Below are positions 2,650 to 20,799 of a stretch of 20,799 nucleotides of DNA, piece by piece. Position 1 is the stretch's first letter, and the number at the start of each line of letters is the position of its first letter. The translations under genes and the position numbers were made by a program. The DNA lies in the IMG/VR virus record IMGVR_UViG_3300037041_001338, positions 1-20,799 of that record. One strand, 5' to 3'. The notes beneath the pieces were generated by a model. It had not been told where the DNA came from. It saw only the letters and a program-made list of their open reading frames with translations, and made no database searches. The DNA comes from a virus.

Positions 2650-4566
2650 ATGGCTTCAATAGATGTTAGTGCCGATTATAAAAAAATTCAATCTGAGGTT
2701 GAGTCTGCTGACGCATATAAAGATTTAAAAGAACAATATCGTGAGGTAATAAGTAGAAAGGGAGATTCTTTTGAAAAAAAATCGGATTCTACTTCCAAAC
2801 AGTCGTCCAGTTTATCAGGTAGTACTAAGGCGTACCAAAAAAAAGTAAAATCACAATTTGACCACTTACTTGATGTTAATAATGTAACAGGTAAAAAATC
2901 ATTAAGTTATGTTAAGAAAAAGTTTATCCAAGTTACAAACACTATTGAACCTGAAATTTTAACAATTATTTACGAAGAAATATTAGCATTAATTGGTTGT
3001 GACCAACAATTAGGTTACGTACCAAACACTCCTGTGTATATTAAAGTTTCATCTATAGATTTAACAGGGTTGTTAAAAATAGACCCTGCTAGTCAAGTAG
3101 GTAAATTATTATATGAAAAAAGTTCAGTGGTAATTCAGAATAACCCATTTCCATTAAATAAAGAACTTTATTCGGTTACCCAAAGTACAAACCCTTACTC
3201 GGTTGATAATTCTCAATTTTATGTCGGTACTTCAGGTCAGAATTTATTTGATATACAATTTTTAGAAATTAACCCGACCACAGGTATTGGAGGTGGTTGG
3301 TTTAAGGTTACGCCAAAAGCAAGATTTGATGTAAATAATAACCCCTCAAATTTAGTTGGGCAATTTGTTCAAGACTATTATTCAACAATTAAACTTTTTG
3401 ATGGTCACAATTTATATTCGTGGTTAATGAACTTTTTAACTGGAGCATTGTCAATTAAATTAGGTGATAGTGATGTTCAGATAAAAGACAAATCTTGGTT
3501 TAGTATCATGATTCAAAGGATACTTGGTCTATGTTTTGATAATAGGTCAGAAATAGATGTAAGTGGTAATGCAAAAATTTCACCATCAGACGGTATTGAC
3601 CAATCTTTTTTTGAACTGGACTCTATTGATTTGAGGGAGATAGACCAAAAAATAAATAACATAAAAAAAGGTGTAATTACTTTTGTGGAATGTGATAATG
3701 TTGATATACCAATTAATACTGAAGGTATATTAAATGAATTGGATAAATTAAGATATGTTAAAGATAATGACTTTAATTCAGTTGCAAATAGTTTAACCGC
3801 AAATATTGTTGACCCAAACTCACCAAATAAAAACTTACCTAACTTAGAAGTTTTTGATAAGGAATTTATTAAACTATTAATCACTGGTTTAGTTAGTGCG
3901 ATACTATCACCAAAAGTTTTATTACCAATTTTTACAATGATGAAATCGGTAGGTCAATCTATTGATGATAACGCCGACACATTTGAAAAATTCTTTAAAC
4001 AATTTAAAACATTTGCAATAAACGTTATAAGTAGAATAAGTGCAATTTTTGTAAAAACCCTTTTTGAAATTATTAAAAGGGATATTAAACAACTAATGTT
4101 GAGTGTGATTACCGATATCGCTAGAGAAAAGAAAGATAAATTAAGTAAAATGATATTAAAATTGGCGAAAATTTTACTAACCGTCGCAGAACTTTATAAG
4201 TTAGTTACCGATTGGCGAAAATGTAAAAGTGTTGTTGATGAGTTATTGGCTTTATTACAAATTTGGCAAAGTGAGATAAAAGGATTTATTCCATTTCCTT
4301 TACTGTATACGGCCAGACTTTTAGATGGTTACTCAGATACAAGAGCATTTATCGGTACTATTAAAGAATTACAAAAATTAGGGATACCTACTGGAAGGAT
4401 GCCAGACGGAAGTCCAAATCTATCTGTGTTATCAGTTTTTTCGCAGTTAAAAGCGTCTTCAGAAGAAGAAGTTCTAAATGGTAAAATACAAACGGCAATA
4501 CCACCATTAACAATAACACCTTCAGGATTTACATTACCTGCAAGTTCATTTGGAAAAAAAATGTAA
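2650..4566 (+). CDS. Large putative virion (baseplate/tail) protein
   Basis: A 638-residue protein without a recognised family. The first 80 residues are charged, helical and Ser/Lys-rich. Residues about 85-300 look mixed alpha/beta. About 300-400 is acidic. Residues about 410-545 contain long hydrophobic and amphipathic helices (for example around LLITGLVSAILSPKVLLPIF), and the C-terminal 90 residues are rich in Pro, Gly and Ser. Its position directly upstream of the gp5-like hub gene, with gaps of 2 and 1 bases around a tiny intervening gene, suggests a baseplate hub or tail component. The length is near that of T4 gp29 (tape-measure/hub protein), but I see no clear gp29 signature, so the role is inferred from position only. 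Confidence 0.6.
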   Translation: MASIDVSADYKKIQSEVESADAYKDLKEQYREVISRKGDSFEKKSDSTSKQSSSLSGSTKAYQKKVKSQFDHLLDVNNVTGKKSLSYVKKKFIQVTNTIEPEILTIIYEEILALIGCDQQLGYVPNTPVYIKVSSIDLTGLLKIDPASQVGKLLYEKSSVVIQNNPFPLNKELYSVTQSTNPYSVDNSQFYVGTSGQNLFDIQFLEINPTTGIGGGWFKVTPKARFDVNNNPSNLVGQFVQDYYSTIKLFDGHNLYSWLMNFLTGALSIKLGDSDVQIKDKSWFSIMIQRILGLCFDNRSEIDVSGNAKISPSDGIDQSFFELDSIDLREIDQKINNIKKGVITFVECDNVDIPINTEGILNELDKLRYVKDNDFNSVANSLTANIVDPNSPNKNLPNLEVFDKEFIKLLITGLVSAILSPKVLLPIFTMMKSVGQSIDDNADTFEKFFKQFKTFAINVISRISAIFVKTLFEIIKRDIKQLMLSVITDIAREKKDKLSKMILKLAKILLTVAELYKLVTDWRKCKSVVDELLALLQIWQSEIKGFIPFPLLYTARLLDGYSDTRAFIGTIKELQKLGIPTGRMPDGSPNLSVLSVFSQLKASSEEEVLNGKIQTAIPPLTITPSGFTLPASSFGKKM

Positions 4567-7897: not shown

Positions 7898-8485
7898 ATG
7901 CCAAATTATAATATACAAAATTGTGCTTCAGGTGATACTTACGTAGTTAGCGCAACATCATTATCGGTAGGTGAAGTTGTTTCATTTTTTATTGGTGAAA
8001 CTTCGTTATGTGGTACTGTATTAGAAGTAACTTCAGACCCGATAACACTATTAAGTCTTTATAACTCTAGTTATGCGGACTGTTTAACTTGTTACCAAGA
8101 AAATGATAAATCATTTTTAGTTAGGGCGTGTACCAATCCTGAATTAGAAGGTCCAGTTAATGCAACTTATTTCTCACAAAACCCTATAGGTAAATTTTCA
8201 ACTATTGAAGGTCCATTTTGGGAGGGTCCTTTATGTTTTGAAATTTTAGGAGTGTTGGATACCTTGTTTGAAGAGGCATTTATTGTGAGTGGTTATTATG
8301 ATGATTGTGATTGTCAAGATAGAACCCCAAGAAGTGCAAACACTGAAACGGTAATATGTGTTGTGTGTAGTGGAGAAACTATCACTGTAACACCTCCACA
8401 CGCAGTGTATACCGATGCTCAAGGTACTGCGGTAACTCAATTAAACACGGTCGTTTTAGGAGGACCTGATGGTTTAAATAGTTAA
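7898..8485 (+). CDS. Cysteine-rich putative tail-fibre protein with shared C-terminal module
   Basis: A 195-residue protein built of two related Cys modules and a tail. In the first module, C9, C38 and the Y-x-D-C-x-x-C motif (C62, C65); in the second, C78, C113 and Y-D-D-C-D-C (C137, C139). The distance from the second Cys to the first Cys of the closing motif is 24 residues in both, which suggests an ancient internal duplication. Residues 146-195 form a third module (C154, C157) that is about 60% identical to the C-terminus of the next gene product. There is no signal peptide. Placement between two fibre-like genes suggests a receptor-binding or decoration protein. The cysteines could form disulfides after release or bind metal. 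No named family is assigned. Confidence 0.65.
   Translation: MPNYNIQNCASGDTYVVSATSLSVGEVVSFFIGETSLCGTVLEVTSDPITLLSLYNSSYADCLTCYQENDKSFLVRACTNPELEGPVNATYFSQNPIGKFSTIEGPFWEGPLCFEILGVLDTLFEEAFIVSGYYDDCDCQDRTPRSANTETVICVVCSGETITVTPPHAVYTDAQGTAVTQLNTVVLGGPDGLNS
8333..8482 (+). repeat. C-terminal 50-residue module, copy 1
   Basis: This encodes residues 146-195 of the Cys-rich protein. By eye about 30 of 50 residues match copy 2 at 9651-9800, including SANTE, CSGET, QLNTV and LGGP, with no gap. Part of the DNA is also conserved (for example around the QLNT codons). Confidence 0.85.
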
Positions 8486-8489
8486 TATT

Positions 8490-9803
8490 ATGTCAACTGC
8501 TGGATTATTAGATAACACATTTCCTCAAGGAACTAATTACGGTTTTGATAAGGATGTTCACGACATTAAATTACAATCTGATGGTAAAATTTTAATTGCT
8601 GGTGATTTTGAACATTATGATTATGAGGGAAATATTTATCCTTCACCTTTTTTATTAAGGTTAAATTCGGATGGGACTTTTGACCCCACATTTGATATAA
8701 CCATGGGCAGTTCAGGATTTAATGAAAGCGTTAGAACGATACATATCCAAACGGACGGAAAAATATTAGTTGGTGGGTTTTTCACTCAATTAATTAGAGA
8801 TAGTATAACCTATAATGTCGGTCATATTGTTCGTTTAAACCCTAATGGTACCGTTGATGATACATTTAGTGGTGGTACAAGATTTAATGGGGACGTGTTA
8901 AAAATTGAAGTTCAACCTGACGGTAAAATTATAGTTGGTGGTAAATTTACTCAATATGATGGACAATCGTATAATAGAATAATTAGATTATATGGTGACG
9001 GTAGTATTGACCCAACATTTGTTATAGGTACGGGTATTGATGGAACCTCTCCAGCAAATTATGTAAACGATGTTTTATTACAACAAAACGGTAAAATTAT
9101 TATTGGTGGTTATTTTGAAGACTACGATGGAACTTCAGTTAACTCAATTGTTAGAATATTATCAAATGGTTCTATAGATACCTCATTTAATACTGGTGTA
9201 GGTGTAAACGGTATTGTAATCACGATTGGAATCCAATCAACGGGTCACATTATTCTTGGGGGTATTTTTACTCAGTATAATGGTACTGATTTAACTTTTG
9301 GTAACATTGTAAAAATTAATAATAATGGTAGTTATTCTGATTCATTTGGATATGGTTTAGACACTGCCGTAACATCATTGATAATACAATCGGATGATAA
9401 AATCATTGTCGGTGGTGCATTTATTAAGTTTTATACATCACTTACTGAGTTTATAACCGCAAAAAAGTTAATTAAATTTTTACCCGATACTTCTTTAGAT
9501 ACTGGTTTTTATTTAAACCCTAACTATGACGATGTATTTTTAGCATTAGCATTAACACCTAATGATGGGTTTTTATTTTTAGGTGGTGATAGTAACTACC
9601 CACCATTTAATCATTTTGGTAAATTAATAAATGAAGCATTAGTCCCTATAAGTGCTAATACCGAATATTTTATGTGTATAACTTGTTCTGGTGAAACAAG
9701 TACAGTTTCTGTTCCTCATGCTATTTATAGTGATGGAAGTGGTAGAGACATTGTACAATTAAACACGGTTGCTTTAGGGGGACCAAATGGATTATATAAT
9801 TAA
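8490..9803 (+). CDS. Seven-bladed delta-60 (DUF5122-like) beta-propeller, putative tail fibre/adhesin
   Basis: A 437-residue protein made of seven tandem units of about 50-58 residues at roughly 22-80, 81-135, 136-192, 193-242, 243-294, 295-348 and 349-387. The consensus is 'v..i.lQ.DGKIlvGG.F..y.g.....ivRln.dGsiD.tF'. This is the delta-60/DUF5122 repeat, found mainly in bacterial surface proteins. The N-terminal LLDNTF resembles the outer strand 'iDptF' and could close blade seven by the usual Velcro arrangement. The last 50 residues (388-437) are the module shared with the preceding protein. The gene starts 4 bases after its neighbour without a Shine-Dalgarno site. A receptor-binding or glycan-binding fibre tip is the best guess. 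The repeat assignment is strong; virion location is inferred. Confidence 0.8.
   Translation: MSTAGLLDNTFPQGTNYGFDKDVHDIKLQSDGKILIAGDFEHYDYEGNIYPSPFLLRLNSDGTFDPTFDITMGSSGFNESVRTIHIQTDGKILVGGFFTQLIRDSITYNVGHIVRLNPNGTVDDTFSGGTRFNGDVLKIEVQPDGKIIVGGKFTQYDGQSYNRIIRLYGDGSIDPTFVIGTGIDGTSPANYVNDVLLQQNGKIIIGGYFEDYDGTSVNSIVRILSNGSIDTSFNTGVGVNGIVITIGIQSTGHIILGGIFTQYNGTDLTFGNIVKINNNGSYSDSFGYGLDTAVTSLIIQSDDKIIVGGAFIKFYTSLTEFITAKKLIKFLPDTSLDTGFYLNPNYDDVFLALALTPNDGFLFLGGDSNYPPFNHFGKLINEALVPISANTEYFMCITCSGETSTVSVPHAIYSDGSGRDIVQLNTVALGGPNGLYN
9651..9800 (+). repeat. C-terminal 50-residue module, copy 2
   Basis: This encodes residues 388-437 of the propeller protein and aligns without gaps to copy 1 at 8333-8482. 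The paired cysteines (C-x-x-C), the PHA-x-Y segment and the LGGP-x-GL end are retained. Confidence 0.85.
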
Positions 9804-10407: not shown

Positions 10408-10842
10408 ATGTTAGAACGATTACGAACCTTAATTAAAAGACAATATGTTAAATATCTTATATGGGCAAGATATAGACATTTTAACAACACATTTGGTAAA
10501 GAAGTCCAAAAACTAAATTATAATGAACGAATTTGTAAATCAATTTGTCATAAATTGATTAACCAAGATGATTCTAAATTTTTGATTGCACCAATTTCAG
10601 GTAAACGTTATATAAAAAATACAAGATTAGGTTTATTTATTATTCTTGATGAAAGAAGGATTAGTATCACAAATCACGTATACCATTATGATGTAGTTCT
10701 AAACGAAAGAGATTGGGATAGAATTACAGGTATGTACGATAATAAAACTGAAAAGATTAGACAGGAGTTTGAGGACGAAATGATTTCACAAATTAAAAGT
10801 TCACTAAGTAGTATTTTAGAAAAAGTTAGTAAAAAATATTAA
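10408..10842 (+). CDS. Phage protein of unknown function
   Basis: A 144-residue basic protein that I do not recognise. The first 60 residues are Arg/Lys-rich and helical. The middle reads like a small alpha/beta domain (FLIAPISGKRYI, LGLFIILDERRISITNHVYHYDV), and the C-terminal 40 residues are a charged helix. It follows the tail-operon terminator, so it needs its own promoter; TATACTTG at 10384-10391 is only a weak match to the Bacteroidetes -7 element TAnnTTTG. It ends tail-to-tail with the DUF5872 gene, the two stop codons sharing the palindrome TTAA at 10839-10842. Confidence 0.6.
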   Translation: MLERLRTLIKRQYVKYLIWARYRHFNNTFGKEVQKLNYNERICKSICHKLINQDDSKFLIAPISGKRYIKNTRLGLFIILDERRISITNHVYHYDVVLNERDWDRITGMYDNKTEKIRQEFEDEMISQIKSSLSSILEKVSKKY

Positions 10843-11810
10843 CCTTTATTTTTAATAAACTCTAATAGATAGTTTTTAATTCTAACCTCAAAAGATTCAT
10901 TCTTAGAGGTTTTTTTTGGTTTGTACGATACCATCTTAGGCTTGTTACCAGTACCACTCTTAGAATGAGTTTTTTCAGCCTTTCTTTTTTGTTGACAAGC
11001 CGACCTTTTCTGAGCATCTGTCATTTTGGATGCAACACCTGCTGCTCTACATTTTGGGTAACCCTTGTCAGATGCTTCAGGTCTACCACAAGGGGGATGT
11101 CCTCCACCTTCTTTTTTACGACAAATATTCACCCAAGGTCCTTTTGGTTGTGAACTACCTTTTGGTTTTTTCTTTGTTCCAAACCAAACGGCCAAATCTT
11201 CATTAATTGTATGAACATCGTGAGTTGGATTATCATAGGTACCATCTGAACCCTTTTCCCAAACACCCACTTTTTTATTAACATTATTCTTCAATGTCTT
11301 TTGTTTCTTTTTGTGATTGATATCGCTATCAACAAATTCAGTAAAGGGGGATAAATTATTTTTTTTCCATTTCTTTAATCCTAATTCTTGGGGTCCACTA
11401 TATTCACCAGAACTCGTGTCAGTTATTGTTGCTTCAATAAGTATATCATCAACATCAATCCACTCCTTAATTGGAACAATACTTAATTTAGGTACACCTC
11501 CAGGATATTGATTAACAATATTACCATCATCGTCACTAAACGTTGCGTATGGATGTTTTTTCATGTAGTTAGTGATTTTTTTTGCTTGTTTCTCAATCTT
11601 TTTAATTTGGTCTATCCTCTCATCCATTTTCCCGTCATAACTGTCGTATTGTAGTAGTGGGCTATCAAAATCTGAAACCGCATCTGTGAATGGCGCTAAT
11701 GAACTCTTTTTAAACGGTCTCAACCCTGGCTGGATTGGGGGAATGTAAGAACCTCTACCACCATTAGAATCCGATGTTGCCTCTTTAATATGGATTTTGT
11801 TGTTTTTCAT
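10839..11810 (-). CDS. DUF5872-domain protein with duplicated I-x-E-A-T module
   Basis: A 323-residue basic protein. Residues about 204-278 resemble DUF5872: a 'DLAVWFG' start, a 'WVNICRKKEGGG..PCGR' block, 'KGYPKC' and 'MTDAQKRSACQQKRKAE' (C230, C241, C254, C272). This domain occurs in phages and large DNA viruses with unknown function. The N-terminus reads HIKEATSDS, matching the gp21 site [LI]-x-E followed by AT. A second, related segment at about 124-163 (LIEATITDTSSG) repeats the same layout, including 'GL..(F/W)KK..L(A/S)PFT(D/E)'. The C-terminal 20 residues form an amphipathic helix. It may be a protein packaged in the head and processed by the prohead protease. The function is unknown. 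Confidence 0.7.
   Translation of the reverse strand: MKNNKIHIKEATSDSNGGRGSYIPPIQPGLRPFKKSSLAPFTDAVSDFDSPLLQYDSYDGKMDERIDQIKKIEKQAKKITNYMKKHPYATFSDDDGNIVNQYPGGVPKLSIVPIKEWIDVDDILIEATITDTSSGEYSGPQELGLKKWKKNNLSPFTEFVDSDINHKKKQKTLKNNVNKKVGVWEKGSDGTYDNPTHDVHTINEDLAVWFGTKKKPKGSSQPKGPWVNICRKKEGGGHPPCGRPEASDKGYPKCRAAGVASKMTDAQKRSACQQKRKAEKTHSKSGTGNKPKMVSYKPKKTSKNESFEVRIKNYLLEFIKNKG
11322..11441 (-). repeat. Internal protein repeat, copy B (I-x-E-A-T module)
   Basis: This encodes residues 124-163 of the DUF5872 protein. Aligned to copy A, the order of motifs is kept with a 1-2 residue gap before 'GL'. Confidence 0.65.
11673..11789 (-). repeat. Internal protein repeat, copy A (I-x-E-A-T module)
   Basis: This encodes residues 8-46 of the DUF5872 protein. 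It shares IxEAT, a Ser/Gly-rich linker, 'GL', 'KK', 'PFT' and an acidic end with copy B at 11322-11441. Confidence 0.65.
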
Positions 11811-13081: not shown

Positions 13082-13825
13082 TTATCCTAATTTAGCCAAT
13101 ATTGCATCAATATCGGTATCGGTTAATTGTCCTGTTGGAGTTTGAACCCCTAAAGATGTTTGTATTTGAGTATTTAAATTTGTAACATCTTGAGTGGATT
13201 GTTTTTGTGTTCCCGTATTTTTATTACCATCCACCTTTACATCGGTAACTTTACCATCATCTTGTTTTGTTAGTTCTTGTTTTGGAGCTTTATATTGACA
13301 AACTTTAGTTAGTTGTGTTGTTAAATATCTTTCCTCATCATACCATCGTTGACTTTTGTCTTGGAATTGTACTGATGGTGTTTTTATATTCTTAACGTTA
13401 GTTAAACTAAATTTACCTGTTGCACAATTATACATAACACTTGCGGTCGCCTGACCATTTATTTTTCCTGTTAAAGTTTGTGGTAATTGGACTGTAGTTG
13501 CTTGAGTAATTAAATAAGGTTTACCTTGTTTATTAATTTTTTGAACAAACTTGGTTCCTTTAAAAAATTTTAATTCATTGTTAGATGTACCTCCTTTAGC
13601 ATTTTCTAAAGAATAACTTGCAGAACTTACAGTCCATGATTGTGGAGGAGTTATTTTTTGTTTTGGTTGTACATTAGACGCACTTGATTTTCCATAATCA
13701 GGATTTGAGACGTTCCCACCTTCCTCATTAATAATATTAAGATACTGATTTTTACTTCTTTCCTCGTGTAAAGAAAGAATTCTCATTACCTCATCAGAAT
13801 CTATTTTAAATAAATCTTTTTTCAT
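13082..13825 (-). CDS. Putative head-targeted protein, partner of the PG-binding gene
   Basis: A 247-residue protein. Its N-terminus (KIDSDEVMRILSLHEE, then YLNIINEEGG) parallels that of the next gene product: an 'I(D/N)..(D/E)......ILSL' helix that ends in I-N-E at residues 32-34, a candidate prohead-protease site. The body is rich in Thr, Gln, Lys and Asn with beta strands in the middle (about 65-165). A low-complexity Gln/Thr stretch follows, then a short C-terminal motif 'LTDTDIDAILAKLG'. No family is recognised. The shared leader and the 7-base gap suggest that the two genes are co-expressed and routed to the same place. Confidence 0.6.
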   Translation of the reverse strand: MKKDLFKIDSDEVMRILSLHEERSKNQYLNIINEEGGNVSNPDYGKSSASNVQPKQKITPPQSWTVSSASYSLENAKGGTSNNELKFFKGTKFVQKINKQGKPYLITQATTVQLPQTLTGKINGQATASVMYNCATGKFSLTNVKNIKTPSVQFQDKSQRWYDEERYLTTQLTKVCQYKAPKQELTKQDDGKVTDVKVDGNKNTGTQKQSTQDVTNLNTQIQTSLGVQTPTGQLTDTDIDAILAKLG

Positions 13826-13865: not shown

Positions 13866-14342
13866 TTACCCTTCTAATTTATGTTTTTGATACATAACTG
13901 ACATAACGTGTATAATACTATGAAGATGATACAAGCATAAGATAATAATACTATAGATTTCAAGATATAATAATCCTAATGACAAACCAACTAATGGTGA
14001 TAAAAGGTATAAATAAGCGTAAAATTTAAATCGTTTACTTTTAAATAATGGATATAGACAAGATAAAAAAAACATAACGGCAACTACATTATGTATCATT
14101 GGGTATAATTTGACTGAGAATGCGGTTAATAAAACCAATAAAAAAGATGAGAATCTCCAATTATCAATACCAAAAAAATAATAAGCAGTCATTACATTTG
14201 CCACAATAAATAACGGTTGTAACGAAGTGTCCCAATATTGTGATATTGAATTTAATTCACCCTCAATAGATAATAAAACAAATGGATATAATAATGATAT
14301 AAGAACAACAATTATTTTAATTATATAATGGGTATAACTCAT
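13866..14342 (-). CDS. Polytopic membrane protein of unknown function
   Basis: A 158-residue, strongly hydrophobic protein with about six predicted membrane segments (roughly residues 6-26, 41-57, 64-78, 83-100, 107-125 and 128-148) separated by short polar turns. Basic residues between segments four and five (KSKRFK) and at the end (QKHKLEG) suggest a cytoplasmic side. Histidines occur in or next to segments (H84, H139, H141, H145). It lies between the HNH endonuclease and the head-protein operon, with its own upstream octamer. It is longer and more polytopic than most holins. Superinfection exclusion, lysis control or a host-derived auxiliary function are all open. No family is assigned. 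Confidence 0.65.
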   Translation of the reverse strand: MSYTHYIIKIIVVLISLLYPFVLLSIEGELNSISQYWDTSLQPLFIVANVMTAYYFFGIDNWRFSSFLLVLLTAFSVKLYPMIHNVVAVMFFLSCLYPLFKSKRFKFYAYLYLLSPLVGLSLGLLYLEIYSIIILCLYHLHSIIHVMSVMYQKHKLEG

Positions 14343-14353
14343 AAAGAGGATTT

Positions 14354-14365
14354 TATTTATAAATA
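14354..14365 (-). promoter_or_regulatory. Octamer-type element before the membrane-protein gene
   Basis: On the minus strand it reads TATTTATAAATA, almost the same as the element before 13825. TATAAATA (14354-14361) ends 11 bases before the ATG. It overlaps the last codons of the HNH gene (stop at 14357). Confidence 0.5.
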
Positions 14366-15043
14366 GTCTAATTTATTTGACTTGCGAATATTTTCATCAC
14401 CCCACAATGGTTGCAAATTGTTTAATGACCAACATTCTATAAACTCATTGTCACCAATCTCTTGGATGTTGAATGATGAAATCGGTTTTATATGGTCAAC
14501 ATGCCATTCACCATAATTGTCCCAAGACATTCTTTCATCAAATTGTTTTTCCAAATGTACAATTAAATCTTCGGGTGAGTATTTTAGAATATCAAAATAA
14601 TGACCGTTTTTTTTAACATTGTTTTCCTTTAAAACCTGATAAATTGCGGTTCTGAAATTGTTGATTAGTTTATAAATGGGGTCAGTCGCTTTACGATTTC
14701 TTTCGTAATCACGTTTTATTTGACGAATTTTATCTACATTATTTTCTCGGTATTCTTTAATGTAGTTACTTAAATGTTCTTTATTTTGTTCAGACCATTT
14801 TTTATGGTATTCTGATTTTTTTTCCTTATGTTTATGATAATTTCTTTTATAGGATTCTTTTCTACCACCTAAGAATTTTCTACCACTACCTTTAATAATG
14901 ACATTATTTTCTTTTAATATTCTACTTATTGTAAATGTTGACCATCCAAATTTATTAGATATTTCACGTAAACCTTTTAATTCGTCTACAAACATTTTTT
15001 TAATTTCTATTATTTGTTCTTCAGTTGGGATAATTTTTTTCAT
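14357..15043 (-). CDS. HNH endonuclease (probable free-standing homing endonuclease)
   Basis: A 228-residue protein with three parts. Residues 1-50 are a resolvase-like helix-turn-helix (ISNKFGWSTFTISRILKEN). Residues about 55-120 form a long, very basic helix. Residues about 120-228 form an HNH nuclease domain with the core WHVDHIKPIS (H181, D183, H184), then WSLNNLQPLW and a final E-N-I-R-K-S-N-K motif (N218, K221, N223). Such enzymes cut DNA site-specifically and spread by homing, often next to conserved structural genes in T4-like phages. Here it lies directly downstream of the major capsid gene, behind that gene's terminator. The catalytic residues look intact, so it is probably active. 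Confidence 0.85.
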   Translation of the reverse strand: MKKIIPTEEQIIEIKKMFVDELKGLREISNKFGWSTFTISRILKENNVIIKGSGRKFLGGRKESYKRNYHKHKEKKSEYHKKWSEQNKEHLSNYIKEYRENNVDKIRQIKRDYERNRKATDPIYKLINNFRTAIYQVLKENNVKKNGHYFDILKYSPEDLIVHLEKQFDERMSWDNYGEWHVDHIKPISSFNIQEIGDNEFIECWSLNNLQPLWGDENIRKSNKLDYL

Positions 15044-15148: not shown

Positions 15149-17008
15149 TTATCTCAATTCTCTTAAATCGAATGTTCTAACACCATCAACTGTAATTCGT
15201 GCGTAAAATCTGTTGTTGACCATCTTTTTCGCGTATCTCGTCATGATACCTTTGATTGGTGTGAAGTTGAATGGGTTGTACATTGTAGGAGTTAATTGTA
15301 GAGGTACATACGGTGCGTAGATGTAACCTGTGTCTAACAATGACGTTCCTTTATGTCCTAGTAACACTTGGTTAGCTGGGAAGTAAGGGTCACGGTAAAC
15401 TTGGTAACGACCTGCTAATGTACCAACTCTTTCAATACCCATGTTGTATTGGTCTTGCTCAGGTGATGCGTTAGATACGTGGAAGTATTCTAAATCATCA
15501 AAGATAGCTGAAACCTCAGAAGAAACAACAATCCAGTTAGCTCCACCTCTCAATGTAGATTTGTGGATTTGTGCTGACAATTGGTTGATTGCTGTAATCA
15601 AAGTTTGGTTCCAATCTTTTTGAGTGTAAGATGTAGTTGCTTGAATTCTTCTCCATCCATTGTAATCCCAACGTAGGTTCCAAGCCGCTCCTTTACGTAG
15701 GTCACGTAAAATTTCACGGTCAATTTCAGCCGCAACTTGTTCTGACAACAACGCTGTCAATTCAGCTTCAGCATCAATGTTATGGAACGCTGCAACGTCC
15801 TGAGCTAATTCTGGAGACCATTGTGCTCTTAGTTTTCTTTCTGTCACAGAAACTGTAACTGACTCAAGGTCAAAAGAAACCTCACCAATTTTGTCTTCAA
15901 ACTCTAACTCTTCGTAACGTCTGTAAACTGCAGTAATAGAATCAGCATCAATAGTGTCAATCAATGTACCATTGTATCCGTCAATTGATTCTGCGTCACA
16001 AGTAGCACATACAGGACAAGAAAGGTCAATTTCTAAATAGATACAACCTGTAGCATCACAGATGTTTTTGAATGAACCTCCGTTACCAGGGTTTGCACCT
16101 GTAGGCCATTGAGTTTGAACTGTATTACCGTATTTAACAATACCTTTACCATATTGTTGAGTAACAACTCTAAACAATAAAGAAACTGGGTTATCGTTAG
16201 TGTCAACAATAGTGTTACAAGATGAACCACTATCAACAACCAATTTTGTTGGGTCAGCGATTAAATGTAAGTCAGATAAGAAAGCCTCAGTATCCATTTC
16301 GTTACCATCAGGTCCGATTAATTTACCAGCTCCGTCAGATGCGAAACCACAAAGACTAACGATAAGTTTTCTAACATTTTTACCATCTAATGTAGTTCCA
16401 GTGTAATCAACTAAATCACCATTTTCCCATACTTGAACTGTAGTAGCTTCAGTGATTGCTGACCAACGACCTTTAGAGTAGTCAAATAAACCTGCTGGGT
16501 CTAAACCTGGCTCAGTTCCTTCATAGAACAAATCATAAAGATTTTTCTTATAAGCTCCTGCTCCTGTGTATCCTGCAGTAGCGTCACCAGGGTAGTTACC
16601 TGGAGAACCTACAGGTGCGTAATGGTCACCTGAACCACCAGCGTCTAATCCATTGTAAGTACCACCTGAATACCCTTGGATTTTAGGTACGAAGTAGAAC
16701 AATTTACCGATAGGTAAGTTCATAGCTTGTACTGATACGATATCATTCGCTAACAATTTAGAGAATACACGTCTAACGATAGGGAATACAACAGTTTCAA
16801 AAGAACCTGAAGACCCATCACCTGTAGCCTCATTAATTAGGTGAGACGCTTGGTTCTCATATAACTGAGCAACGTTCTCTTTTAAGTGTCCTTGTAGACC
16901 ATCTAGGAATCCTAATTTATCCCATTTACTAATAGTATCTTCTTTAATAACTTTAAGGTGCTTAAGACCGATGTTACCAACAAGACCTGATTCTAATAAT
17001 GCTCCCAT
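15149..17008 (-). CDS. Major capsid protein, T4 gp23-like
   Basis: A 619-residue protein (T4 gp23 has 521). Conserved gp23 blocks include VSVQAMNLPIGKLFYF (about 91-106), RKLRAQWSPELAQDVAAFHN (391-410), DAEAELTALLSEQVAAEIDREI (412-433), GRYQVYRDPY (533-542) and the final IYAPYVPL, FKPI-like and RFYARITVDG strands. The N-terminal 60 residues end in L-I-N-E before ATGDG, closely matching the T4 cleavage after E65 (LTE before A), so residues 1-60 are probably removed by the gp21-like protease. The stretch between the MNLPIG and SPELAQD blocks is about 300 residues, compared with about 160 in T4, and carries seven cysteines. The gene has more C- and G-ending codons than its neighbours, as expected for high expression. 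The name gene 23 is given by homology. Confidence 0.93.
   Translation of the reverse strand: MGALLESGLVGNIGLKHLKVIKEDTISKWDKLGFLDGLQGHLKENVAQLYENQASHLINEATGDGSSGSFETVVFPIVRRVFSKLLANDIVSVQAMNLPIGKLFYFVPKIQGYSGGTYNGLDAGGSGDHYAPVGSPGNYPGDATAGYTGAGAYKKNLYDLFYEGTEPGLDPAGLFDYSKGRWSAITEATTVQVWENGDLVDYTGTTLDGKNVRKLIVSLCGFASDGAGKLIGPDGNEMDTEAFLSDLHLIADPTKLVVDSGSSCNTIVDTNDNPVSLLFRVVTQQYGKGIVKYGNTVQTQWPTGANPGNGGSFKNICDATGCIYLEIDLSCPVCATCDAESIDGYNGTLIDTIDADSITAVYRRYEELEFEDKIGEVSFDLESVTVSVTERKLRAQWSPELAQDVAAFHNIDAEAELTALLSEQVAAEIDREILRDLRKGAAWNLRWDYNGWRRIQATTSYTQKDWNQTLITAINQLSAQIHKSTLRGGANWIVVSSEVSAIFDDLEYFHVSNASPEQDQYNMGIERVGTLAGRYQVYRDPYFPANQVLLGHKGTSLLDTGYIYAPYVPLQLTPTMYNPFNFTPIKGIMTRYAKKMVNNRFYARITVDGVRTFDLRELR
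16829..17008 (-). other. Predicted propeptide of the capsid protein
   Basis: Residues 1-60 end at L-I-N-E|A-T. This is the same position and pattern as the T4 gp23 cleavage site ([LI]-x-E). The length, 60, is close to the 65 of T4. Confidence 0.75.
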
Positions 17009-17046: not shown

Positions 17047-18588
17047 TTATCTTAATTTTGTCATCAAATCTTTCATTCTCAAGAACTGAGGATTTTCGTA
17101 AGTTTTTGACTCAATTAAGTTAACCGCTGAACCTGTTGACGGAGAGTTATTAATTGTTCTCTCAATTGACTCATTCATTGGTTGAGTTTTAGTATTTGTT
17201 AATTCACTTTTAATTGTGTGATACAAGTTCTTAGATTCTTTAATAGTTTCTACAGAATCAAATCTTTTCAAGATGTTAATCTTTTCTTGTTTAGATGTTG
17301 TATGTTCAGTGAATAAACGAGTTGCGTATGCCAAGTTTGAATTGAAAACTGCAACTTCATTTAATTTATCTCTGAATACATTTAACGCTTTTCTGTATTC
17401 TTCATTTTTTTCTCTAAGGATTTGTACTTCTCTTGAAGTACTTTCTTTAATTGCGGTGTTTGATTTAGAATGTGCTCTTGGTTTTGGTAAACCTCCTTTT
17501 CTAAAATTAGACCCTGAACCTAAAGTGCGAGACGCTTCTTTAGTTTCGGCCTTTTTACCTTTAACAACTTTCATTTTACCTTCTAAGTTTTCACCATCTT
17601 TGTATGTGAAACCTTTTTTAGCACTACCTGTACCCATAGTTTTATTAACCTTTTTCTTTACGGTTTTAAAACCACCTTCTTGGTTTGGTTTTGCTGAGTA
17701 AATTTTCTTTTTGTTAGGTTTACCCATACCTACACCTTTAGCTTTAAATGATTTAGACTCCATAACTGAATCTAGGTCATATGACTCTTCGTCCTCTTCT
17801 TCATCAAACTCTTCGTCTAATTCATAAGATTCGTCTTCCTCTTCTTCCTCAAACTCTTCGTCTAATTCGTCAGATTCTGCAGTTTCATCACCTATTTCAA
17901 TTTCATAGATAACTTCATCTTCTTCATCTTCTTCATCTAATTCATCTTCTTCATCTAATTCATAAGATTCGTCTTCCTCTTCTTCCTCAAACTCTTCGTC
18001 TAATTCATAAGATTCGTCTTCTTCTTCTTCTTCGTACTCCTCGTTTGCAAAAACTTTATTGATGATGTCTTTAACATCCTCATCTTCATCTTCCTCAAAC
18101 TCATAAAGTTCGTTTTCTAAATCATAACCTTCTTCAGATTCACCTACTATCATATATTCAGTGTTATTTTTTTTATCTTTCAAGTTGATATTTCCTGAGT
18201 CATCTTTTTGAACAACGATTTCATCATCAGGTCCCATTAACTGAAATACTCTTAGTACTTCGTCAGGGTTTTCCTCTTGTGTTAAATCAATAACAGGTTC
18301 TTCTTCGTCTTCAATGCCTTCTAGGTCATCATCAACATCAAGGTTATCTGTCTCAACATCTTCCATTTCATCTGAATCTAAGTCAGAGTCAATGTCATCA
18401 ATTTCAACGTCTGTGTCTTCAACCTCATCACTATCAACATCTTGTTCTGTTAGAGATTCTTTTACTAATTGATTGATTTCTTCTTTCATTGTTGAATGAA
18501 GTATTCCTTTTGCATTTTCGGCAACAGCTTCTTCCAAATTCTTAATTTGAATGATTGCTTCTTCTACCAAAGATTTTTTGTTTTCCAT
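17047..18588 (-). CDS. Prohead core scaffolding protein, T4 gp22-like
   Basis: A 513-residue protein placed between the prohead protease and the capsid gene, as gene 22 is in T4. Residues 1-50 are helical (SLVEEAIIQIKNLEEAVAEN). Residues about 50-275 are extremely acidic with repeated blocks of the type EEEEEDESYELDEE. About 280-385 is basic and Gly/Ser-rich. Residues about 385-513 are a helical scaffold-like domain (VQILREKNEEYRKALNVFRD, LAYATRLFTEHTTSKQEK) with a conserved-looking end. Several [LI]-x-E sites (for example SLTE, AIKE, TIKE) are compatible with degradation by the protease during maturation. It is much longer than T4 gp22 (269 residues) because of the acidic and basic insertions. 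The role is inferred from synteny and composition. Confidence 0.8.
   Translation of the reverse strand: MENKKSLVEEAIIQIKNLEEAVAENAKGILHSTMKEEINQLVKESLTEQDVDSDEVEDTDVEIDDIDSDLDSDEMEDVETDNLDVDDDLEGIEDEEEPVIDLTQEENPDEVLRVFQLMGPDDEIVVQKDDSGNINLKDKKNNTEYMIVGESEEGYDLENELYEFEEDEDEDVKDIINKVFANEEYEEEEEDESYELDEEFEEEEEDESYELDEEDELDEEDEEDEVIYEIEIGDETAESDELDEEFEEEEEDESYELDEEFDEEEDEESYDLDSVMESKSFKAKGVGMGKPNKKKIYSAKPNQEGGFKTVKKKVNKTMGTGSAKKGFTYKDGENLEGKMKVVKGKKAETKEASRTLGSGSNFRKGGLPKPRAHSKSNTAIKESTSREVQILREKNEEYRKALNVFRDKLNEVAVFNSNLAYATRLFTEHTTSKQEKINILKRFDSVETIKESKNLYHTIKSELTNTKTQPMNESIERTINNSPSTGSAVNLIESKTYENPQFLRMKDLMTKLR
17816..17868 (-). repeat. 53-bp perfect direct repeat in the scaffold gene, copy 1
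   Basis: Identical to 17954-18006, with a 138-bp (46-codon, in-frame) offset. It encodes part of the acidic EEEEEDESYELDEE block. Confidence 0.9.
17954..18006 (-). repeat. 53-bp perfect direct repeat in the scaffold gene, copy 2
   Basis: Identical to 17816-17868. The surrounding region (about 17780-18040) is a TTC/TCT-rich near-microsatellite that could expand or contract in frame. Confidence 0.9.
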
Positions 18589-18753: not shown

Positions 18754-18963
18754 TTAGTCTATCACCTCATCAATTTTACTTTCAACAATAGCGGTGATTC
18801 TCCAATCCATTGTGTAGTTTTCGTAAATTTTGGTAACCTTTGCTTCTACGTCTGTGGGACTGTAACCTTTTACCAATTTTTCTTCTTTAACTTTTTTCAC
18901 TTTACCTGAATCGGAATCTACCAAGTCAGTCGTAATTCTTGCTACAAAATATTTTTCGTCCAT
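18754..18963 (-). CDS. Small DUF4494-like protein
   Basis: A 69-residue protein, 8 bases after the prohead protease gene. Its pattern, an initial 'KYFVARI' strand, then SGKVKKVKEEKLVKGYS, then TDVEAKVTKIY and a final beta strand (WRITAIVESKIDEV), resembles DUF4494, a short protein family of Bacteroidetes and their phages with no known role. The recognition is from memory of the pattern and is moderate. In T4 the genes near 21 encode small prohead core proteins (gp67, gp68), so a core or assembly role is possible, but no gp67/68 similarity is seen. Confidence 0.6.
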   Translation of the reverse strand: MDEKYFVARITTDLVDSDSGKVKKVKEEKLVKGYSPTDVEAKVTKIYENYTMDWRITAIVESKIDEVID

Positions 18964-18971
18964 AATTTAAA

Positions 18972-19700
18972 TTATTTTCCCAAATAATCGGACAATCTTC
19001 TCATTAAGTCAAGTGATTTATTGTTATTGTCACTAACTTCTGTGTTCGCTCTCATTTTCTTTTCTTCCTCAAGATTCTCTTCGTACTTAAATCTATCATC
19101 AGGGTTTGAGAAAAGATATGCACCAGGTGTTGAAGGTGATGATACTAAGTCAAAACAAATTAATTCAAAGTCATCTTGTACTTCATTTCTTTCACCAACT
19201 TTTTTTAATGAACCGACACCTCTTGAGGAAATACCCAATGTAACCCCTTGTCTAAGATAGTTAGCCGCCATGTCACCTTTAGTTGATACAATACCTCTTT
19301 CGTGAAAACCTGGACTTGTTAGTAACAACAGTTTACCCATTAATATATTTCCTTCCCACCAAATTTCAGTAATCATATGTGAAACTCTATCTAAATCAAT
19401 CAAAGATGATTCAGGGTGATTTAATTCAGATAGAGAAACACCTTTCTGTATCATTTTTTTGTAGTTATCCGATTCACGTTTTAATATACGCTCAGGATAA
19501 ATTCTACCGTTTCTATTTGGAGTGTCGTATTTTTGTAATACAGCATAGAACTCAAAAGGTTTAGAGTGGTCTAAAAAATCTTTAGATTCTCTAATTACAT
19601 CTATATTATGTTTATCTTTTGGGGAAATATATCCCGCATCATATTCAATTAGAATACCCTTTTTATTTGTATCGTTGGGGTTTAATATTTTTAAATCCAT
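18972..19700 (-). CDS. Prohead core protease, T4 gp21-like
   Basis: A 242-residue serine protease of the phage prohead type. Candidate catalytic residues are H95 in SELNHPESS (the family's GELdHP block), S158/S159 in LGISSRGVGSL and D184 in CFDLVSSPSTPGAY, all in the family order. VSHMITEIWWEGN (106-118) is also typical. In T4 this enzyme is activated inside the prohead, removes propeptides after [LI]-x-E, degrades the scaffold and then itself. The C-terminal 40 residues are charged and probably a self-removed tail. The gene lies upstream of a small gene and the scaffold, in T4 order, and is preceded by a 24-base gap after the 155-residue gene. Confidence 0.93.
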   Translation of the reverse strand: MDLKILNPNDTNKKGILIEYDAGYISPKDKHNIDVIRESKDFLDHSKPFEFYAVLQKYDTPNRNGRIYPERILKRESDNYKKMIQKGVSLSELNHPESSLIDLDRVSHMITEIWWEGNILMGKLLLLTSPGFHERGIVSTKGDMAANYLRQGVTLGISSRGVGSLKKVGERNEVQDDFELICFDLVSSPSTPGAYLFSNPDDRFKYEENLEEEKKMRANTEVSDNNNKSLDLMRRLSDYLGK

Positions 19701-19724: not shown

Positions 19725-20192
19725 TTAAACACTTTCAGTTTGGCATAATTCTTCTTGTTTTTTACTTTTAGTTAAATAAAAATTAAAATAATCATTACCA
19801 TCAAAATTTTCGTCATAAATTCTTTTTACTATATCTTTAAAATTTTCTTTAATTTCTTTTGATTTAAAATCAACGTCTTCATTTTTTAAATAAAAATTTA
19901 TTTCTAAATTCATAAATGATTTTTTACCCAATGTTAAACCACTTGAGCGTAAATCTAAATCAACAATAAAACTATCATCAAATATCTCCCTGTCAATTGA
20001 TTCATACACTGAATGTTTTATAGCCCGACTAAGATTAAGAACAATCCTTCCCCAATTTTCCGACTCTTTTATTGGTTCAACCCAAGTTTGTAGATTTAAA
20101 TACACTGATTTAAAATTAATTGAATCAACGGTTCCATAAATTATCTTTGATGAACTGAATCCGTTTATCTTGGAGGTTTTCCCTTTTTTCAT
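19725..20192 (-). CDS. Phage protein of unknown function upstream of gp21
   Basis: A 155-residue protein with a basic N-terminus (KKGKTSKINGF) and a mixed alpha/beta body: strands around IIYGTVDSINFKSVYLNL, a helix NLSRAIKHSVYESI, a strand pair FIVDLDLRSSGLTLG and NLEINFYLK, then charged helices. It is transcribed with gp21 (24-base gap). The pattern looks like a compact single domain, but I do not recognise it. A portal-to-protease linking gene in T4 (67 or 68) does not resemble it. The start at 20192 is favoured over later Met codons by its position after the divergent region. Confidence 0.6.
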   Translation of the reverse strand: MKKGKTSKINGFSSSKIIYGTVDSINFKSVYLNLQTWVEPIKESENWGRIVLNLSRAIKHSVYESIDREIFDDSFIVDLDLRSSGLTLGKKSFMNLEINFYLKNEDVDFKSKEIKENFKDIVKRIYDENFDGNDYFNFYLTKSKKQEELCQTESV

Positions 20193-20267
20193 TATTTTTC
20201 ATATAATAATCGTTTATTTTTTTAAAATATAAGTATATTTACCATTATAGTCAAAACCCTAAAAATT

Positions 20268-20459
20268 ATGTTAATAGTTAAAGTAGATAATAACTCAAAT
20301 ATTGAAAAAGCCTTAAAAATTTATAAAAGTAAGGTTATTAAAACAAGGCAAAGTACTCATTTAAATGACAGAAAAGAATTCGTTAAAAAATCTGTTAAAA
20401 AAAGAAACGTACTTAACAAAGCCAAGTACGTTCAAAAAAAGTATAAGAGTAACGATTAA
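20268..20459 (+). CDS. rpsU: Ribosomal protein bS21 (phage-encoded)
   Basis: A 63-residue, very basic protein that aligns over its whole length with bS21: an initial strand LIVKVDNNSN, then IEKALKIYKSKV (family: 'i..ALkrfKrk.'), then RKEFVKKSVKKRNVLNKAKY (family: 'Rr.fekPs..R+...kA.y'). The usual Pro of 'KPS' is replaced (KKS). bS21 sits on the 30S platform near the 3' end of 16S rRNA and the anti-Shine-Dalgarno; in Bacteroidetes it helps to cover the anti-Shine-Dalgarno. Tyr54 here is at the position of the tyrosine reported for this role in Flavobacterium, as I recall. It is on the opposite strand to its neighbours and shares a TTAA stop overlap with the gene at 20456. The call is strong by pattern. 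Confidence 0.85.
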   Translation: MLIVKVDNNSNIEKALKIYKSKVIKTRQSTHLNDRKEFVKKSVKKRNVLNKAKYVQKKYKSND

Positions 20460-20799
20460 AGATTTTCGTTTAAACTTTTTAATTTGAAATAAGTTAATTT
20501 ATCATACTTTTCTGATTCAACCTTTTCAATTGACTCATTTATTTTTTTCACTGTTTCATAATCTGTATTTTCTCTTTTTAATGTGGTTAATTTAGAAATA
20601 ACAGAACTTTTTAACGGTTCAAAATTTTCTTTTAAAACACCATCATCTTGAGATAATAAATCCACTAATTCTTTTTTATCTGATTCGGATAAATTATTTA
20701 CGTAATTAGTTATTGTTTTATTTGCAATTGAAATTATAGTTTTGATTGGGACTTTTGGTGCATCAACAATAGATTTAGGTTTTTTCTTTAATGATTCAA
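20456..20799 (-). CDS. Phage protein of unknown function, 3' part (start outside window)
   Basis: The frame stays open from the stop at 20456 to the right edge, so the GTG at 20665 is probably an internal valine. About 113 residues are visible: a Lys-rich segment, then helices with a 'LSESDKKELVDLL' block and a C-terminal charged helix pair (TVKKINESIEKVESEKY, LTYFKLKSL). It is helical and resembles small T4-like prohead-region proteins only in general composition. No family is recognised. It ends tail-to-tail with bS21, the two stops overlapping in TTAA. Confidence 0.6.
   Translation of the reverse strand, partial: ESLKKKPKSIVDAPKVPIKTIISIANKTITNYVNNLSESDKKELVDLLSQDDGVLKENFEPLKSSVISKLTTLKRENTDYETVKKINESIEKVESEKYDKLTYFKLKSLNENL

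Follow-up and report, generated by a model that had tools for sequence, protein, structure and literature searches.

The window analysed here, a viral fragment of 20,799 bases from IMG/VR with a GC content of 27-38% per kilobase, carries a gene for what is probably a phage paralogue of bacterial bS21, the phage being a T4-like myovirus. The reading that we favour, with a confidence somewhat better than even, is that this protein is made late in infection, that it enters or tops up host 30S subunits and that it keeps the anti-Shine-Dalgarno (anti-SD) sequence masked, so that ribosomes remain suited to the phage mRNAs, which lack Shine-Dalgarno (SD) sites. The preliminary description had put forward the pairing of a phage bS21 with an SD-less phage and host as possibly new, but Chen et al. 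(2022; PMC9723584) had published this central idea before, including the masking late in infection. New here are the SD test of bS21 leaders, a promoter that diverges from the bS21 gene and the occurrence of neighbour genes without bS21.

A divergent member of the bS21 family

20268..20459, plus strand: phage bS21 gene, 63 aa, with Tyr54 and with KKS replacing KPS (open reading frame, Pfam, alignment)

The gene is a complete ATG-to-stop open reading frame of 63 codons that occupies exactly positions 20268-20459 of the plus strand. The preliminary description had called it a complete bS21 and had proposed a profile search as the check; in that search the product matches PF01165 (Ribosomal_S21) with 33.7 bits against a curated gathering cut-off of 27 (E 3e-8), which upholds the assignment with one caveat, namely that it scores 22 bits with the NCBIfam equivalog TIGR00030, below the cut-off of 28.95. 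Two other phage relatives also stay below this cut-off (23.7 and 26.9), whereas all four bacterial bS21 proteins tested pass it (50.2-63.7), and at E 0.01 or better PF01165 is matched by 44/44 aligned phage relatives. Given its TIGR00030 score, the window protein is classed within the S21 domain family as a divergent protein rather than as an equivalog of the cellular one, and by sequence the phage bS21 proteins are a divergent branch of the bS21 family. A Pfam match to VMAP-M14 fell under its own cut-off and was rejected; it is probably a composition effect of the lysine-rich helix.

The best match of solved structure is the Flavobacterium johnsoniae protein (7jil chain z, E 4.6e-8), with which residues 1-57 align without a gap at 44% identity. 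The AlphaFold2 model has the same two-helix fold (helices 12-35 and 41-62, mean pLDDT 90), and a Foldseek search with it returned 11 PDB matches, which all come from ribosomes and have weak E-values (0.28 and above). The two proteins differ in helix-1 residues and at position 41, which is proline in F. johnsoniae and lysine in the phage. In the ungapped alignment Tyr54 of the window protein pairs with Tyr54 of F. johnsoniae, just as the preliminary description had placed it on the position thought to contact the anti-SD, and the protein thus carries the aromatic residue 54 of the anti-SD-masking, Bacteroidota-type bS21.

A residue comparison of 109 unique phage proteins with 80 bacterial proteins places these features in context. 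Position 54 is Y, H or F in 105/109 phage proteins (Y87/H13/F5) and Y or H in 80/80 bacterial ones (Y75/H5). The preliminary description had left it open whether the phage copy would keep or change the masking; with an aromatic residue 54 in 105 of the 109 phage proteins, keeping it fits better than changing it. That description was also right that the KPS proline is missing, the window motif being KKS, but this is no special clue: K41 is found in 81/109 phage proteins and in 2/80 bacterial ones, and we rejected the absent proline as a functional clue because K41 is frequent among phages and present in bacteria too.

Strong differences between phage and bacterial proteins lie at positions 5, 8, 19, 21, 23, 24, 27 and 28, of which 21, 23, 24, 27 and 28 belong to helix 1, with a rough phage motif S-K-V-I-K-T-[RK]-Q versus a bacterial R-K-F-[ED]-K-T-G. 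It is possible, though in our view unlikely, that phage bS21 changes mRNA choice, an altered helix 1 at the mRNA site causing phage mRNAs to be preferred over host mRNAs. Chen et al. (2022; PMC9723584) prefer this reading, and the concentration of differences in and before helix 1, which agrees with the divergence that they reported, argues for it. However, phage and host mRNAs are alike SD-less, no leader motif common to phage mRNAs and absent from host mRNAs was found, and helix-1 differences could have arisen by drift or by evading a host factor.

The head-gene block and the probable host

15149..17008, minus strand: major capsid (major head) protein (phrog_138, E 4e-66)
17047..18588, minus strand: acidic protein between the protease gene and the capsid gene, in the place of the scaffold (assigned from position only)
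18754..18963, minus strand: small conserved head-block gene
18972..19700, minus strand: prohead core protease, Peptidase_S77 (PF03420, E 1e-22; phrog_207)
20456..20799, minus strand: 3' part of a convergent gene cut by the window end (full length about 238 aa in the relative L005)

The bS21 gene lies on the strand opposite to a T4-like head-gene block and next to head genes, as had been described beforehand, the anchors being the prohead protease and the major head protein. From bS21 the order on the opposite strand is a 155-aa gene, the protease, the small gene, the acidic protein and the major capsid protein. The window itself spans protease to capsid; in L005, the closest long relative, the 238-aa gene, the portal gene and TerL follow beyond bS21 and complete the block, which places bS21 reversed inside a TerL / portal / protease / capsid arrangement. 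Such an arrangement, with bS21 on the reverse strand of the head block between two hypothetical genes, was described for Bacteroidetes phages, along with a conserved Tyr54, anti-SD masking and a proposal that phage bS21 enters the ribosomes of Bacteroidetes at a late stage of infection (Chen et al., 2022; PMC9723584). The window shares with those phages the block, the aromatic position 54, the divergent helix 1, an SD-less Bacteroidetes host (here a probable one) and a neighbour gene that co-occurs with bS21 on the opposite strand, and we see no substantial difference from them.

The closest named phages of the capsid protein are one uncultured phage and Flavobacterium phage immuto (MW353175). 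The cultured immuto has a capsid gene related to that of the window and likewise arranges the block as TerL / gp20 / protease / capsid, but its head genes are all on one strand and bS21 is not annotated in the block. The Chen-type arrangement and the immuto-related capsid indicate that the host is probably a member of the Bacteroidota, and they support the Bacteroidota link made in the preliminary description. The 80 bacterial loci from the genome scan described below, all of this phylum, point the same way, although the scan leaned towards it.

Two further observations concern other parts of the window. Directly downstream of the capsid gene lies an endonuclease VII-like / HNH-type gene (14357-15043, minus strand; phrog_1035), perhaps a homing endonuclease. 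The adjacent genes 7898-8485 and 8490-9803, both on the plus strand, encode proteins that share a similar C-terminal stretch of about 40 residues (CSGET...PHA.Y.D..G...VQLNTV.LGGP.GL.N), the product of 8490-9803 being a DUF5122 beta-propeller.

A neighbour gene with its own divergent promoter

19725..20192, minus strand: neighbour gene of 155 aa, divergent from bS21 and a candidate bS21_CN gene (Chen et al., 2022)
20226..20254, minus strand: promoter of the neighbour gene, divergent from bS21 (TTGACT, 17 bases, TATATT)

A divergent gene lies upstream of bS21 on the opposite strand in 97/109 unique phage entries. It encodes 93-176 aa, mostly 142-159, the two starts are 63-119 bases apart in nearly all cases, and one family holds 107/108 unique neighbour products. 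Its promoter is conserved as well: TTTGAC is present in 81/88 unique intergenic regions, and TAnnnT follows exactly 17 bases after it in 96% of 80 regions with 61 distinct spacers. A conserved AGTCAAAA within the bS21 leader, considered as a regulatory RNA element of bS21, was rejected as such: it is the -35 box of this opposite-reading promoter, which explains its conservation there.

A query made solely with the neighbour gene gave 79 assessable contigs. In 71/79 the bS21 gene stands divergent to the neighbour, and in 8/79 there is a clean gap instead, so that a strict dependence of the neighbour on bS21 was rejected. The neighbour is a head-block gene that usually, but not always, has bS21 beside it. 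Whereas the neighbour occurs here without bS21, Chen et al. did not detect theirs in two outgroup phages.

The neighbour belongs to a widely conserved family, but no known fold or family could be assigned to it after comparison with Pfam, PHROG, PDB and BFVD. Its structure model has a pLDDT of 88; Pfam and PHROG gave no convincing family match, PDB gave neither a sequence match nor a fold match at E 0.001, and BFVD contained one uncharacterised relative of the fold (A0A8S5L9A5, TM 0.76). In T4, gp67 and gp68 occupy the place between the portal and protease genes, and one may guess, from position only, that the neighbour is a counterpart of gp68.

The location of bS21 between the portal and protease genes, along with the scores of phage bS21 proteins under the TIGR00030 cut-off, might also suggest a non-ribosomal protein, small, basic and binding RNA or DNA, that serves head assembly or packaging. 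We regard such a role as very improbable, since Tyr54 and other C-terminal residues are conserved, the gene is on the strand opposite to the head genes, it is missing from the block in the eight gapped contigs and goes unannotated in that of immuto, and the bS21 of Pelagibacter phage HTVC008M enters ribosomes, having been incorporated into those of E. coli (Mizuno et al., 2019; PMC6375957). HTVC008M resembles the window phage as a large myovirus with bS21, but its host belongs to another phylum.

Shine-Dalgarno sites in phage and bacterial leaders

20247..20267, plus strand: bS21 leader without an SD site (+0.8 kcal/mol for the duplex formed with the 16S tail)

SD strength was measured as the duplex energy of a leader with ACACCUCCUUUCU, which we take to be the Bacteroidota 16S tail, using cut-offs of -13 kcal/mol (extended SD) and -7 kcal/mol. 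Phage loci came from viral contigs retrieved with several bS21 queries and one neighbour-gene query and from two phage-collection records, and once repeats of protein plus leader were dropped 163 unique phage leaders were left. The bacterial set consists of 80 loci kept from a genome scan, all titled as Bacteroidota lineages, whose search pattern was built from an alignment containing Bacteroidota sequences and leans to that phylum.

At -13 kcal/mol or stronger there are 0/163 phage bS21 leaders as against 55/80 bacterial rpsU leaders, and at -7 kcal/mol or stronger 3/163 as against 56/80. Fisher's test gives p = 2e-35 for this contrast, a value that ignores common descent and, the sequences being related, overstates the evidence. 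With +0.8 kcal/mol the window gene shows no extended SD of -13 kcal/mol or stronger, the mark of SD-autoregulated rpsU (McNutt et al., 2023; PMC9976891). The claim of the preliminary description that the other phage genes start without SD sites was confirmed: 0/23 window leaders reach -7 kcal/mol, as against 2% of shuffled leaders, and among 503 unique genes of related phage loci the fraction is 1.4%, as against 2.2% at a mock position. Thus, phage bS21 obeys the phage-wide SD-less rule, and host rpsU is a known exception to the host rule. The absence of an SD at phage bS21 may, then, be a mere consequence of the phage-wide lack and carry no special meaning.

The contrast has exceptions on both sides. 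In the 735-kb phage LR756501 (LR756501.1, L194), AAAGGAGG stands upstream of bS21 at 4001 with -12.1 kcal/mol, and this bS21 may be under host-like control. Among the sampled bacterial rpsU genes such an SD is missing in 25/80, about a third, including that of a Saprospiraceae locus (L082), the top-ranked bacterial match, which has no strong SD. Many uncultured Bacteroidales (L083, L084, L086, L091, L095 and others) have a 10-base SD match, AAAGGAGGTG, upstream of rpsU, in contrast to the report that no Bacteroidales satisfy the criteria for rpsU autoregulation (McNutt et al., 2023; PMC9976891). As to precedent, Chen et al. (2022; PMC9723584) mention neither promoter nor leader nor ribosome binding site in their text, and a literature search, incomplete and hence no proof of novelty, gave no paper that deals with SD sites at the bS21 genes of phages.

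As a separate observation on the leaders, an octamer resembling TATTTATA closely precedes many window genes, at a distance of about 6 to 25 bases from the start codon: 2270 and 6428 on the plus strand and 10839-11810, 13082-13825, 13866-14342, 14357-15043 and 17047-18588 on the minus strand. If this octamer is the -10 element of a late promoter, some mRNAs would be leaderless or nearly so.

Proposed masking, escape from feedback and takeover of the bS21 pool

Masking of the anti-SD by a late phage bS21, the reading that we favour, starts from what was observed here, namely the family, the gene context, Tyr54, the SD-less leaders and the contrast with bacterial rpsU. The phage protein would be made late, as published for relatives in which bS21 is transcribed together with the structural genes (Chen et al., 2022; PMC9723584), and it would enter or top up host 30S subunits, where Tyr54 and the C-terminal helix would keep the 3' tail of the 16S rRNA masked. 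With masking kept, ribosomes stay fit for SD-less mRNAs, which those of the phage are. Counted against this reading are the TIGR00030 shortfall, the helix-1 differences, the SD of LR756501 and a host that is itself deduced from the contig.

A simpler possibility, which we consider rather improbable, is that phage bS21 merely repairs a late loss of bS21, topping up ribosomes without directed displacement of the host protein. Ribosomes losing bS21 late in infection would prefer mRNAs with an SD and be inefficient at initiating on those without; this logic agrees with the weakness of bS21-poor F. johnsoniae ribosomes on SD-less mRNAs and with the SD-less state of the phage mRNAs. It leaves unexplained, however, why helix 1 diverges so consistently from host bS21.

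Under the masking reading, the SD contrast also bears on regulation. Bacteroidota ribosomes conceal their anti-SD by means of bS21, and host rpsU exploits this for its feedback: the gene is autoregulated through an extended SD, which bS21-free ribosomes recognise; in F. johnsoniae, ribosomes without bS21 raise rpsU translation and lower that of SD-less mRNAs, and an exchange of bS21 driven by phages during infection has been discussed (McNutt et al., 2023; PMC9976891). While F. johnsoniae rpsU has both the extended SD and the autoregulation, the phage gene has no extended SD. Since the phage bS21 gene is without an SD, its synthesis should not need bS21-free ribosomes, unlike that of an extended-SD host rpsU, and the phage copy would escape the feedback of host bS21. 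As phage bS21 fills the bS21-free ribosomes, translation of host rpsU should drop, which would help the phage form to displace host bS21. One may propose, if only tentatively and with more doubt than conviction, a feedback-proof phage bS21, whose SD-less gene is read by bS21-filled ribosomes, whose masking represses rpsU and which takes over the bS21 pool of Bacteroidota ribosomes. However, 25/80 bacterial rpsU genes, that of the Saprospiraceae locus included, are without the SD, and the feedback loop may thus be absent in the real host.

Since the phage family is already known, the value of the analysis lies in a sharper prediction of feedback escape and not in the discovery of a gene. The purpose of phage bS21 becomes a question for two reporters: whether it turns strong-SD rpsU reporters down, and whether its own SD-less leader stays active meanwhile.
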